Shown: positions 1-56,710 of the stretch, piece by piece
How positions within the stretch are numbered: position 1 is the first letter of the stretch
How the letters are laid out: every line of letters starts with the position of its first letter
Virus record (IMG/VR): IMGVR_UViG_3300031256_000055
Location: 1-56,710 of that record
DNA: 56,710 bases
From: a virus
Direction: 5' to 3' (one strand)
Translations under genes and position numbers: made by a program
The notes under the pieces: model-generated
Database searches by the model: none
Told to the model about the DNA's origin: nothing
What the model saw: only the letters and a program-made list of their open reading frames with translations

Positions 1-180
1 ATGATAGACATGAAACAAATAATAATGAATTGCACAATATGCGGAAAGGAAACTATCCTTACGAAACACAAAAGGTTAAGTTTTTTAAAAACGGGAAGAG
101 GTTATTGCTCAAAAAAATGTTCAAACGCTTACAGAGCGAAAATTTCTTCAATAACCATGTCAAGAACAAACAAGAAATAT
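1..180. repeat. terminal overlap, left copy
   Basis: Identical to 56531-56710 except at one base: C at 53 against T at 56583. The helicase/intein reading frame that begins at 55897 continues in frame into position 3 of this copy, which means the repeat is an overlap of a circular or circularly permuted molecule and not a true end. Confidence 0.95.
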
Positions 181-612
181 GCCAAGGCATTTTCTTTAAG
201 AATGAAAAAAAACAATCCCATGAACAATCCTGTTATAAGAGAAAAAGTAAGCTCAAAATTAAAAGCTATCGGGCATCGTCCTCATATAAGAGGTGGAAAC
301 GGGAAAGGACCTACGATTCATCAATTAGCTTTGGCAAACGCAATAGGCTGGGATATGGAGGTATCCATAAAAACAGGAATGAAAAAGGGGAGCGGGATGC
401 CCTATGTTTACAAAATAGATATTGCAAACGAAATATTAAAAATAGGGGTAGAAGTAGACGGGAATTCTCATGGAACGTTAATAAATCAAGAACGAGACAA
501 AAGGAAAACAGAATTCTTGACTGGATTAGGGTGGAAAATATTGAGATTCAAAAACATAGAGATAGAAAGAAATCTGGAAGAGTGTGTGAATATGATTATG
601 TCTATGATTTAG
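1..612 (+). CDS. homing endonuclease, Vsr/DUF559-like, nested out of frame inside the intein
   Basis: A 203-residue protein is encoded in the +1 frame relative to the helicase/intein frame. Residues 11-40 hold a zinc-finger pattern (C11, C14, C36, C40). Residues 70-90 (KNNPMNNPVIREKVS) resemble the NUMOD3 DNA-binding repeat of homing endonucleases. Residues 138-190 match the Vsr/DUF559 PD-(D/E)XK-like fold: D140, then EVDGNSH (E151, D153, H157), D166, and GWKILRFKNIEI. The family cleaves DNA and is known as the EDxHD homing endonuclease group linked to split inteins. The TAG stop at 610-612 falls inside intein block F of the other frame. No good Shine-Dalgarno precedes ATG 1, 10 or 25, so initiation is unclear. 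In the right-hand copy base 56583 makes residue 18 Ile instead of Thr, while the intein frame is unchanged. Confidence 0.85.
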   Translation: MIDMKQIIMNCTICGKETILTKHKRLSFLKTGRGYCSKKCSNAYRAKISSITMSRTNKKYAKAFSLRMKKNNPMNNPVIREKVSSKLKAIGHRPHIRGGNGKGPTIHQLALANAIGWDMEVSIKTGMKKGSGMPYVYKIDIANEILKIGVEVDGNSHGTLINQERDKRKTEFLTGLGWKILRFKNIEIERNLEECVNMIMSMI

Positions 613-1682
613 AAATTGAAGATAATCATAATTATTTTGCAAATAATATACTTGTGCATAACTGCCACCATATAGGAGCGTCAACCTGGCAAAAAATAAG
701 AAGTCATTTCCATAAAGCTAATCTTTATGGAACAACTGCAACCCCTGTAAGGCTGGACGGATATGGTATGGGTAATGATTTTGAAACTATGGTTGTCGGA
801 AAATCGTATGATTATCTTGTTGATAAAGGTTTTTTGTCATATCCGATTTATTATGTCCCAGAGAACCTACAATTAGATTATGACTTAGCTCATATAAAAA
901 AGAACGGCTATGATTATAATAAAAAACAATCCGAATTAATCCTTGATAAACGAGTAATCACCGGAAATGCTATTGATGAATATGCAAAGTTATGTGACAA
1001 AGAACCTGCCTTGGTGTTTTGTGTATCAATCAAACATGCGGAGCACGTAGCGGAGGAATTCAAAAATGCTGGATATCTAACGGATGTTATACACTCAAAA
1101 ATAAAACCTGATAAGGTTGCCGAGACCATCGAAAAATTAAGACGCGGGGAATTACATGTTGTAACCTCTTGTGATAAGGTCGGGGAAGGGACGGATATCC
1201 CGAAATTAAGAGCGGTGATATTATTACGTTATACGGCATCAATAACGGTCAATCATCAGCAAAACGGAAGGGCATCCAGGCCGTATGAGGGGAAAGAAAA
1301 TTCTATACATATTGATCTTGTCGGGAACTGTAAGACCCATGGGCTGATTAACTTTCCGATAAAATGGGAATTAACCAAGGGGAAATTTGAACCGCCCGTA
1401 CAAGGTGTTATAGAATGTGAATTCTGTATGAAATATTATTCCATTAATTTGCGAGCCTGTCCCCACTGTGGAAAGATGAGGATAATAAAAAAGAAGAAAA
1501 GGAAAGATCCGGTCGTAGTTCCCGGGGAATTGAAACGAATTGATTATGTGAAATTGAATGAGGAAGTGCAAAGAGCCGAATCCTTAGCTGATTTTCATAA
1601 AATAGCTAAGGAAGTTGGATACAAGCCGGGATGGGCTTATCATCGATGGAAACATAAACAGCGGGTAAAAGAGAAAGTTTAA
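1..1682 (+). CDS. SF2 DEAD/DEAH-type helicase, C-terminal part (with C-terminal part of its intein)
   Basis: This is the second part of the gene that starts at 55897; the first complete codon here is at 3. Codons up to 660-662 belong to the intein, and the helicase resumes at 663 with Cys-His-His, completing the motif II DE|CHH. Visible helicase motifs follow: GTTATP (motif III), ALVFCVSIKHAEH (motif IV), TSCDKVGEGTDIP (motif V) and QQNGRASRP (motif VI, arginine finger). The C-terminus has a zinc-ribbon pattern, CEFC...CPHC, then a basic tail. Without the intein the protein is about 459 residues (120 + 339). Its likely role is ATP-driven remodelling of phage DNA during replication or recombination, in the manner of UvsW/RecG-like phage helicases; the substrate is inferred. 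The gene ends 20 bp before promoter P1, so it closes the rightward replication operon. Confidence 0.92.
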   Translation, partial: DRHETNNNELHNMRKGNYPYETQKVKFFKNGKRLLLKKMFKRLQSENFFNNHVKNKQEICQGIFFKNEKKQSHEQSCYKRKSKLKIKSYRASSSYKRWKRERTYDSSISFGKRNRLGYGGIHKNRNEKGERDALCLQNRYCKRNIKNRGRSRREFSWNVNKSRTRQKENRILDWIRVENIEIQKHRDRKKSGRVCEYDYVYDLEIEDNHNYFANNILVHNCHHIGASTWQKIRSHFHKANLYGTTATPVRLDGYGMGNDFETMVVGKSYDYLVDKGFLSYPIYYVPENLQLDYDLAHIKKNGYDYNKKQSELILDKRVITGNAIDEYAKLCDKEPALVFCVSIKHAEHVAEEFKNAGYLTDVIHSKIKPDKVAETIEKLRRGELHVVTSCDKVGEGTDIPKLRAVILLRYTASITVNHQQNGRASRPYEGKENSIHIDLVGNCKTHGLINFPIKWELTKGKFEPPVQGVIECEFCMKYYSINLRACPHCGKMRIIKKKKRKDPVVVPGELKRIDYVKLNEEVQRAESLADFHKIAKEVGYKPGWAYHRWKHKQRVKEKV

Positions 1683-2910: not shown

Positions 2911-3100
2911 AATAGCATTGATTATTGTTTTAACGATTATTTATATAGGTTTATTTTGGGGAATTCCTACAATTATATTGTCTGTTGCGAATAACATTAA
3001 AAATTATTTTTTTATAGTTATGTGGCTTCATATTATAGTAGGTGTTTGCCTTGGAATATGTATATTAATTGCATATTTATTATGTAAGGCGGGATATTAA
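2900..3100 (+). CDS. small membrane protein, two transmembrane helices
   Basis: A 66-residue protein with two hydrophobic helices (about residues 5-26 and 37-62) and little else. ATG 2900 follows GAGGAG with 7 nt between; the start overlaps the end of the DUF551-like gene. Function unknown. The next gene, also a membrane protein, begins at the very next base, so the two may act together. Confidence 0.75.
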   Translation: MKYKIALIIVLTIIYIGLFWGIPTIILSVANNIKNYFFIVMWLHIIVGVCLGICILIAYLLCKAGY

Positions 3101-4243
3101 ATGAACATAAAAAAAATACTTAAAAACATACATTATTTTATCTTGATCCTCATCCCTGCTGGCTGGATATTAAACTGGTATTATTACTATTCCCGGTTTC
3201 AATCGGAGGGGTTTGCCCCGGAGTTACAAATAATGATCCCTGTAATATTGGTTATATTCGCATCGGTTTGTTTTACAACTGGCAATTATCTACATAAAAA
3301 GAAAAATAAAATGTCAATTCTGTTTTTTATAATTTATGGCATCTTAGCTTTTTATTCAATTAACTGCACAACTGCAGGACAATATTGGAGCCAGGTTGTA
3401 AAAAATCAGGAAACCGAAATAAATGAAAATGTAAAAGATAATTCCTTATATCTTGTTGAGCGATATAAAACAAAGATAGCCGAAAAGGAAGAGGAATATA
3501 AAAAGCTTAATGAAATCAAGGATAATTCCATTAATGATTTATCTGATTTATACGGATTTAAAAACACAACAAAAACCGTTGAAGAAATGAAAGATAAAAT
3601 CGAAGCTGATATAAAAGAACTCGAAACTGAACTTGAAAAAATACTTAATCAAAATATGATATCCGTAAAAGAATCCGAAAAAAAGGAAAAGTCAAAAACA
3701 CTATATCAATTCTATGCAGGAAAAGACGGAAACCCAGATATTATCCAATTTATGTTCCAAGTTATGTTGTCGATAATAATTGAGTTAATTGCTCAAATGT
3801 CAATATATATTTTTATGATTATTGAAGATTATAAAAAACGAAAGACACCGGAAATGGAAGTAATCGCCTGTGAATCCGAGAGCGGTGATATTGTAGAGGT
3901 AGAGATTGAGCCCAAATCCGAGACAGAGATTGAACCGGTTGATAATCCCGGTATTTCTGAAAACAAAATAACCCCCGATGAATTGAAATATTTTTCAATT
4001 TTAGCATGGGAGGGAATACACCGGGGATGGTATAAGCATTTGTGTGAGAAAGATATGATTATAGGAAACATGCCCAAATTTAAACAAAATAATTTTACCG
4101 AAGAAAAATATAATAAGATAATTAATTTAGCTCTTCAAAATAAACTTATTAAAGAAGTAGGTAATAATTATGAACAATATAATGAATTTACAACCAATGA
4201 ATACTTTTTCAATAAAATGAAGAGCTTACTAAATTTGACTTAA
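3101..4243 (+). CDS. membrane protein with central coiled coil
   Basis: A 380-residue protein. Three hydrophobic helices lie in residues 10-92, a long charged coiled coil at about 105-205, a fourth helix at about 225-250, and a soluble acidic C-terminal region ending in a possible small winged-helix-like domain. I do not recognise the family. It follows a small membrane protein without any gap. A role at the host membrane (superinfection exclusion or replication anchoring) is only a guess from topology. Confidence 0.8.
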   Translation: MNIKKILKNIHYFILILIPAGWILNWYYYYSRFQSEGFAPELQIMIPVILVIFASVCFTTGNYLHKKKNKMSILFFIIYGILAFYSINCTTAGQYWSQVVKNQETEINENVKDNSLYLVERYKTKIAEKEEEYKKLNEIKDNSINDLSDLYGFKNTTKTVEEMKDKIEADIKELETELEKILNQNMISVKESEKKEKSKTLYQFYAGKDGNPDIIQFMFQVMLSIIIELIAQMSIYIFMIIEDYKKRKTPEMEVIACESESGDIVEVEIEPKSETEIEPVDNPGISENKITPDELKYFSILAWEGIHRGWYKHLCEKDMIIGNMPKFKQNNFTEEKYNKIINLALQNKLIKEVGNNYEQYNEFTTNEYFFNKMKSLLNLT

Positions 4244-55681: not shown

Positions 55682-55900
55682 ATGGAGCAAGAACTATTCC
55701 CAGAAACCGAATATATAAATCAAGATATCCTTCGTTCATATTGGTGGTGGCGTAAAATATTTGGACATGAAAATTCTATAGACATGATGTGTCATGTTGC
55801 TTCCCGTAAAAATGCCAAAGAATGGATACAAGTAATAAAAAGCCAGTGCAAGATTATATATGATAAGAATATAAAATACAAACGGGTAAAAAAGAAATGA
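55682..55900 (+). CDS. hypothetical small protein
   Basis: A 72-residue protein with two Trp runs (RSYWWWRKIFG), RBS TGAGGT just before ATG, and an ATGA overlap with the helicase. Basic end. Between primase-like and helicase genes; a loader or accessory role is possible but unproven. Confidence 0.65.
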   Translation: MEQELFPETEYINQDILRSYWWWRKIFGHENSIDMMCHVASRKNAKEWIQVIKSQCKIIYDKNIKYKRVKKK

Positions 55901-56710
55901 TATACGAACCACGTGACTATCAATATAAAGATATAGCGAAAATACGAGATACGTACAAAGCCGGATCAAAGGCGACTATTTACGTGTCTCATACGGGAAG
56001 CGGTAAAACTATAGTTTTTTCATATATCACCGAACGGCTATATCAGAATAAACAAAAAATATTAATCTGTACTCATCGTGATAATATACTGCAAGAAACA
56101 TCAAAAAAGTTAACGGCTATAGGATTGAAACACGGTATTATTGCCCCCGGGTATCCTTTGGTTAGATATCAAATACAACTTGCAAGTATTCAGACATTAG
56201 TTAGACGGTTGAATCAATGGAACTTCGACTGGTTTGACTGGATGATCTTCGATGAGTGTTTTGTAAAAGGCACAAAAATATTAACTGAAAATGGAAATAA
56301 AAATATAGAAAATATAAAACCAGAGGAGACGGTTTATACTGTAAATGAAAAAACAAAGCAAATTGAAATAAAAAAAGTTAAGAGACTAATAAAAAAGAAA
56401 AGAATAAAAAATCTTGTAAAAATAAATAATATCTTATGTACTGAAAATCACAAAATATATACACAAAGAGGCTGGATTGAAGCAAAAAATATAAAAAAAG
56501 GTGTTGACATGGTGGCTACCATCATGTATAATGATAGACATGAAACAAATAATAATGAATTGCACAATATGCGGAAAGGAAATTATCCTTACGAAACACA
56601 AAAGGTTAAGTTTTTTAAAAACGGGAAGAGGTTATTGCTCAAAAAAATGTTCAAACGCTTACAGAGCGAAAATTTCTTCAATAACCATGTCAAGAACAAA
56701 CAAGAAATAT
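55897..56710 (+). CDS. SF2 DEAD/DEAH-type helicase, N-terminal part (with N-terminal part of its intein)
   Basis: Start ATG 55897 overlaps the preceding stop. Helicase residues 1-120: HTGSGKT (motif I, about 31-37), ILICTHRDNIL (Ia), LASIQTLVRRL (Ib) and MIFDE (first half of motif II). At 56257 the intein begins, so motif II is split between Glu and Cys. The frame stays open to the window end and continues in the copy at position 3 and on to 1682, giving a 771-residue precursor (459 residues after splicing). Confidence 0.92.
   Translation, partial: MIYEPRDYQYKDIAKIRDTYKAGSKATIYVSHTGSGKTIVFSYITERLYQNKQKILICTHRDNILQETSKKLTAIGLKHGIIAPGYPLVRYQIQLASIQTLVRRLNQWNFDWFDWMIFDECFVKGTKILTENGNKNIENIKPEETVYTVNEKTKQIEIKKVKRLIKKKRIKNLVKINNILCTENHKIYTQRGWIEAKNIKKGVDMVATIMYNDRHETNNNELHNMRKGNYPYETQKVKFFKNGKRLLLKKMFKRLQSENFFNNHVKNKQEI
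56257..56710 (+). other. intein in helicase, N-terminal part
   Basis: Block A is CFVKGTKILTENG with Cys1 at 56257-56259. Block B is LCTENHKIYTQRGW with the T-x-x-H signature at residues 62-65. The splicing N-domain ends at about residue 91 (56530), exactly where the nested endonuclease frame starts. Insertion point is the catalytic motif II of the helicase, a typical conserved intein site. Confidence 0.92.
56531..56710. repeat. terminal overlap, right copy
   Basis: Second copy of the 180-base overlap; differs from 1-180 only at 56583 (T against C). It contains the start of the nested endonuclease frame. Confidence 0.95.

Follow-up and report, generated by a model that had tools for sequence, protein, structure and literature searches.

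An intein of a viral helicase gene with an EDxHD-type endonuclease in an overlapping +1 reading frame

The window, i.e. the whole stretch of 56,710 nucleotides of viral DNA analysed here, carries a helicase gene that is interrupted by an intein, and an EDxHD-type endonuclease is encoded in the +1 frame within the same DNA. We consider it probable (roughly 85%) that this intein is mobile and that splicing and homing reside in two distinct proteins, encoded by overlapping frames. The original prediction had two products arise from a single stretch, and this is supported computationally by signs that both frames are maintained.

The helicase, its intein and the overlapping frame

Both ends of the window consist of the same 180 nt, thus the record appears to be circular and to close on itself. 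The two copies differ by a single mismatch (53 C / 56583 T), which exchanges Thr and Ile in the endonuclease frame and is synonymous (Asn) in the helicase frame; among the end-overlap lengths of 100-299 tested, none fits except 180. The joint, deduced from this end overlap, is supported by unbroken contigs of relatives and by isolate genomes with the same layout. After joining, the helicase frame runs without a stop from the ATG at 55897 through the junction to 1682 (771 codons), as had been predicted. The precursor matches Pfam ResIII (1.7e-16) and the PHROG DNA helicase family (9.5e-73). A Pfam scan of the genes neighbouring the locus within the window found little. The features are collected in Table 1.

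Table 1. Features of the intein-bearing helicase locus in the window
Feature	Positions	Strand	Basis or detail
N-extein of an SF2 helicase (ResIII-type), up to ...IFDE of Walker B	55897..56256	+	translation
N-terminal Hint half (Cys1, blocks A/B, invariant T62 and H65)	56257..56532	+	Pfam Intein_splicing 1.5e-12
Terminal repeat of 1-180, inferred circular joint, inside the endonuclease start	56531..56710	+	end overlap
Predicted EDxHD homing endonuclease ORF, 203 aa, +1 to helicase, stop TAG 610-612	1..612	+	Pfam DUF559
Linker between the Hint halves, Lys/Arg-rich, no stop	3..545	+	endonuclease DNA read in the helicase frame
Zinc-finger-like Cys pairs C11, C14, C36, C40, nearly invariant	31..120	+	family alignments
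Putative catalytic D140, E151, D153, H157, D166, invariant or nearly so	418..498	+	family alignments
Dual-constraint segment: endonuclease C-terminus (GWKILRFKN...) and Hint-C strand (RVENIEI...)	523..612	+	both omegas 0.33-0.42
C-terminal Hint half (blocks F/G, ...VHN)	546..662	+	family HMM 7.2e-19, helicase frame
C-extein of the helicase, beginning Cys(+1)-His-His	663..1682	+	Pfam Helicase_C 6.7e-13

The intein (56257-56710 plus 181-662, 312 aa) is inserted in the Walker B motif between DE and CHH, a site written DE/CHH below. It has the features of a Hint-fold intein, namely Cys1, the Thr and His of blocks A/B, blocks F/G, and a terminal His-Asn followed by a +1 Cys nucleophile. The family alignment identifies the Thr and His as T62 and H65, and a family HMM finds the N-terminal half in the helicase frame with 9.6e-24. 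Translation, Pfam and the family HMMs thus uphold the intein as it was originally read. Over blocks F-G (598-662) the DNA also matches part of the DNA polymerase gene in Campylobacter phages, CP21 among them, with 80% identity, which suggests a related intein in that gene.

The endonuclease has a candidate start ATG of its own at position 1, with alternatives at 10 and 25. Pfam DUF559 matches residues 137-202 (8.9e-12), and zf-FCS matches the Cys pairs weakly (E 0.069). The conserved E-D-H-D of the EDxHD (Vsr-like) group in a PD-(D/E)XK-like fold is present as E151, D153, H157 and D166, in agreement with the DUF559 match and the fold match described below. A complete EDxHD-type enzyme with zinc-finger-like CxxC pairs, overlapping the helicase at +1 over about 610 nt, is therefore what the locus contains, as the first reading of the letters had proposed. 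Its placement just after block B also holds. Its stop, which had been placed within block F, lies at the beginning of that block (YDLEIE); the overlap is not all linker, because the last endonuclease codons overlap the C-terminal Hint half.

The AlphaFold model of the endonuclease has a mean pLDDT of 92 and a pTM of only 0.56, perhaps reflecting a loose placement of its two parts. Its best PDB matches are I-Bth0305I (3r3p; Foldseek prob 1.0, E 1.2e-3) and NGO0050. The intein was modelled on a relative, L014, because the window's own intein crosses the joint. In this model residues 1-92 and about 250-304 reach a pLDDT near 96 and match many inteins, while the pLDDT of the linker is about 44, a low confidence consistent with disorder.

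Recurrence of the layout and selection on the two frames

The original prediction had left room for a frameshift error joining the two frames. A tblastn search with the endonuclease against 50,697 phage records gave 40 matches, all of which lie inside genes annotated as helicase, hypothetical, coil-containing or P-loop protein. Eight isolate-phage groups from these records were opened (Vibrio phages 159E43-1b, CP-T1, 104E43.1, K391, 1.088.O and 1.027.O, Corynebacterium phi673 and Pseudomonas MR14), and in all eight the endonuclease is offset by 1 modulo 3 inside one long annotated CDS. Further scans added 80 loci from IMG/VR and 31 from bacterial genomes. After clustering at 85%, the endonucleases of phage isolates, IMG/VR contigs and bacterial MAGs fell into 89 clusters. 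According to family HMMs of the Hint halves, the two halves share one register and the endonuclease is at +1 to them in all EDxHD intein loci, including a split clade described below. All insertions lie at or adjoin Walker B or motif II of P-loop ATPases, mostly at DE/CHH, otherwise at DEAH/C or near it. The hosts are helicase-like in 74 clusters, clamp-loader ATPases in 5, SNF2-like in 3 and the GAFPKP helicase in 4, with Pfam support for the clamp-loader and GAFPKP assignments; one further cluster sits in another ATPase with no Pfam match.

The stop-free +1 layout that had been proposed as a search target was thus found in more than 80 clusters, i.e. it belongs to a whole family and not to a single locus. 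Since it recurs in so many distinct phage sequence groups, we regard it as a conserved architecture rather than a sequencing slip, and the sequence comparison indicates that it is old, widespread, kept among highly divergent relatives and distributed over several host genes. A normal bifunctional intein, with its endonuclease in frame, that was broken up by frameshifts of sequencing or assembly would fit the position of the window's joint, which is deduced and falls in the endonuclease start; however, the same +1 register in more than 80 clusters and in isolate genomes, and a host frame that is stop-free far beyond chance, reduce this explanation to a practically negligible one. Conservation of the layout leads us to reject it.

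The layout was also sampled without reference to the endonuclease, by a DNA pattern for ...NG..VHN/CHH that gave 58 contig stretches (some contigs being shared with the first set). An EDxHD endonuclease is carried by 50 of them, at +1 in each case, and no host-frame stop was seen in any locus of this set with a locatable intein start. The others comprise three in-frame LAGLIDADG endonucleases (assigned by eye), two LAGLIDADG endonucleases in the other shifted frame, one mini-intein, one apparently unrelated stretch and one incomplete stretch. The mini-intein (L146, 131 residues) occupies the same site with both endonuclease and linker gone.

Openness of the second frame was compared with a null in which synonymous codons of the endonuclease were permuted within the same gene, cluster by cluster. 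Shuffling of the 203 codons of the window gave a mean of 13.4 helicase-frame stops and no stop-free shuffle, against none observed; the third frame has 35 stops where 32 are expected. The host frame is stop-free across the endonuclease in 82 of the 89 clusters, with a summed expectation of 693 stops, while the third frame is unconstrained (1347 stops summed over the clusters versus 1258 expected). Chance openness is rejected by this shuffling. Neither is the open linker a by-product of endonuclease codon usage, because free-standing and split relatives have stops at or near expectation: the expected rate is found in the free-standing, intein-less L071 and L112 and in the split GAFPKP clade (L074, L075, L078 and L085), and the free-standing L095 has 21 stops versus 28 expected in the helicase-equivalent frame. 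Relatives with a broken endonuclease frame and a persisting linker, which would have spoken against the overlap, did not turn up in the family; both frames are intact in 82 clusters.

The helicase might instead be made as two split-intein halves, the gene being fractured and the open linker incidental. The split clade, with Hint halves in the same register and 15-25 stops between them, is such a case. Stops are specifically avoided in the other 82 clusters, whereas the split clade has them at chance level; linker openness is therefore selected, and a fractured gene is a very improbable reading of the window. A single host-frame TAG (L003, position 4108) was seen in an otherwise open clamp-loader intein; the start of splitting, recoding or an error are possible explanations.

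Substitutions were analysed in both frames in nine independent close pairs, a comparison the original prediction had proposed. In the linker part (638 substitutions) omega is 0.26-0.27 for the endonuclease and about 1.3 for the host frame, where 9.5 stops were counted versus 32.6 expected; the counted stops come from multi-change codons, as neither member of a pair has a stop in this frame. For the C-terminal part, based on 46 substitutions, the omegas are 0.33-0.36 and 0.38-0.42 for endonuclease and host, respectively. The endonuclease frame is under purifying selection, the linker is unconstrained except for stop avoidance, and the C-terminal part is constrained in both frames. There the host motif R-V-(D/E)-S-(V/I)-E-(V/I) is conserved beyond a null that recodes the endonuclease (e.g. 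entropy 1.21 vs 2.83), and it forms a confident strand in the L014 Hint model (residues 256-268). Endonuclease GW(K/T)VLRF.N and Hint strand RVDSVEV therefore share one DNA stretch, and the last ~35 codons serve both proteins. The helicase frame across the endonuclease had been described as linker only. This stands for the linker proper, which has no domain of its own, and fails for the C-terminal part, a constrained Hint strand (RVENIEI); for the last ~35 codons the description is rejected by the omegas and by motif conservation beyond recoding.

Expression, mobility and origin

We propose that the helicase frame would be read from 55897 to 1682 as a first product, whose Hint halves, connected through ~180 residues of probably flexible linker, would fold and carry out splicing, so that DE-CHH of the helicase would become contiguous again, as the anatomy of the intein implies. 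The second product would be a free EDxHD endonuclease, for which ribosomes would initiate internally, in the +1 frame and directly behind block B. From its family and the fixed insertion site this enzyme is expected to cut intein-less alleles in the DNA coding for Walker B, upon which the whole element would be copied in; site-specific cleavage by the predicted enzyme is suggested by the fixed site.

Candidate endonuclease starts were taken within 14 codons of the first CxxC in 78 clusters, and ATG was found in 71 of them. The best SD energy has a median of -6.6 versus -3.3 in controls with equal numbers of starts per locus (p 8e-12, an optimistic value owing to repeated draws), and energies of -6 or below occur at 58% of candidate starts and 17% of controls. 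As far as start-site composition can tell, the family therefore probably uses internal initiation. The window's own start is weakly SD-like (-1.5 at position 1; -4.9 with a slightly different stretch), unlike most other genes of the window, which have strong SD sites. An alternative is +1 ribosomal frameshifting or transcript slippage out of the intein frame, generating a fusion of the N-terminal intein half with the endonuclease. An A7 run lies just upstream in the window, where a strong SD site is missing, and in many loci the stretch from block B to the endonuclease is free of stops. However, a stop only a few codons before the endonuclease ATG leaves little room for such an event in several loci (e.g. 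L006, L002 and L039), ATG and SD-like sites are enriched at the starts, and no common slippery motif was noticed in an informal look at the loci. We hold frameshifting to be unlikely and retain internal initiation.

A re-fused split intein, which had been suggested as the origin of the overlap, is not supported by the family: the split members fall into a single clade, overlap prevails, and free-standing relatives stand beside intein-less helicases. In a quick tree of the 89 endonucleases the four split members are grouped with full support and overlap is found nearly everywhere else; this tree is unrooted and poorly resolved, and carries no direction between split and overlap. Re-fusion is possible, and the tree fits equally well with split forms having arisen from overlapping ones. 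As overlapping members served as queries, split members that are remote may be under-represented in the sample. Among the free-standing forms, the L095 enzyme (3031-3642), 54% identical to that of the window, lies directly before an uninterrupted helicase of the same type with DE/SHH. In L071 a free-standing EDxHD endonuclease is found upstream of a helicase (~3900) in which CGGA replaces the Cys codon at DE/CHH and shifts the frame; either a scar left by repair at the cutting site or a sequencing error could account for this.

LAGLIDADG_2 endonucleases that occupy the +2 frame of a DE/CHH intein were observed in L184 (Xanthomonas phage FoX3, 2444-3241), L163 and L177, and Pfam confirmed LAGLIDADG_2 in the other shifted frame for the two loci of the endonuclease-blind set, one of which is FoX3. 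The FoX3 enzyme is offset by 2 in the annotated helicase. Its shuffle test is weaker (0 stops versus 3.3 expected, P 0.007; 0.09 for the core alone), and in a relative from phage KLEP7 the LAGLIDADG is in frame. These sequences suggest a second invention of an out-of-frame intein endonuclease. In L105 (~3030-3530) the C-terminal domain of the helicase that bears the overlapping intein carries a second insert, a frame-shifted Endonuclease_7 (Pfam 9.1e-20); it has no recognisable intein domain, like the ShiLan element discussed below.

We somewhat favour the view that these elements are an undescribed, widespread kind of "overprinted" mobile intein, with separate products from overlapping frames, at least two origins (EDxHD at +1, LAGLIDADG at +2) and one DNA stretch coding for an essential strand of both proteins, connecting free-standing endonuclease genes with continuous and split inteins.

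Relation to known systems

In the proposed arrangement homing would be kept without an endonuclease inside the spliced protein, and expression and regulation of the enzyme could therefore be uncoupled from those of the host gene. The host-frame linker would be free to evolve provided that no stop arises in it. The family comprises free-standing, overlapping and split members, which makes the origin of split inteins testable. In the sequenced phage records that we opened, these enzymes are covered by the annotation of a single long gene, and surveys of homing endonucleases therefore miss them. The locus also offers a clean natural example of gene overlap in which dual constraint is confined to one segment.

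I-Bth0305I, also of the EDxHD group, is predicted to share the fold of the catalytic domain. It belongs to a group I intron, not to an intein. Fractured genes, in which an EDxHD endonuclease stands between split-intein halves, have reportedly been described. They resemble the present locus in endonuclease family, in residing in phage replication genes and in having the endonuclease gene between Hint halves. The host gene of the window, like that of 82 clusters, is one continuous ORF with the endonuclease overlapping at +1, whereas separate ORFs are found only in the split GAFPKP clade, which is the fractured form in the present data. The fractured genes of Dassa et al. 2009 are cited in PMC12350094.

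The closest published case found is the ShiLan domain, an out-of-frame HNH endonuclease in a methylase. It shares the shifted endonuclease frame, the stop-free host frame and the likely translation on its own; it differs in endonuclease family, in being thought to be retained in the host protein and in having no intein splicing domain, while Hint halves are present in the window. A passage on a brucellaphage terminase remarks on an "intein-encoded" out-of-frame HNH, likewise an out-of-frame endonuclease in a host gene; it is a remark only, and that passage holds no analysis of splicing domains (PMC4422536). For overlapping frames the ShiLan paper refers to Gosselin, Arsenault and Gogarten 2025, a preprint on inteins of "non-canonical architecture" in actinobacteriophages, which may describe the same principle. 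The EDxHD family is probably not its main subject, since none of the EDxHD matches in our phage collection comes from a Mycobacterium phage.

Canonical bifunctional inteins with LAGLIDADG or HNH endonucleases in frame share with the present element the Hint fold, the position of the endonuclease after block B and the role in homing; in-frame LAGLIDADG inteins occur at the same DE/CHH site in L132, L140 and L144. Inteins are normally taken as one polypeptide with splicing and homing domains. In the EDxHD family, by contrast, the endonuclease is always at +1 to the Hint halves and lies outside the spliced-out polypeptide.
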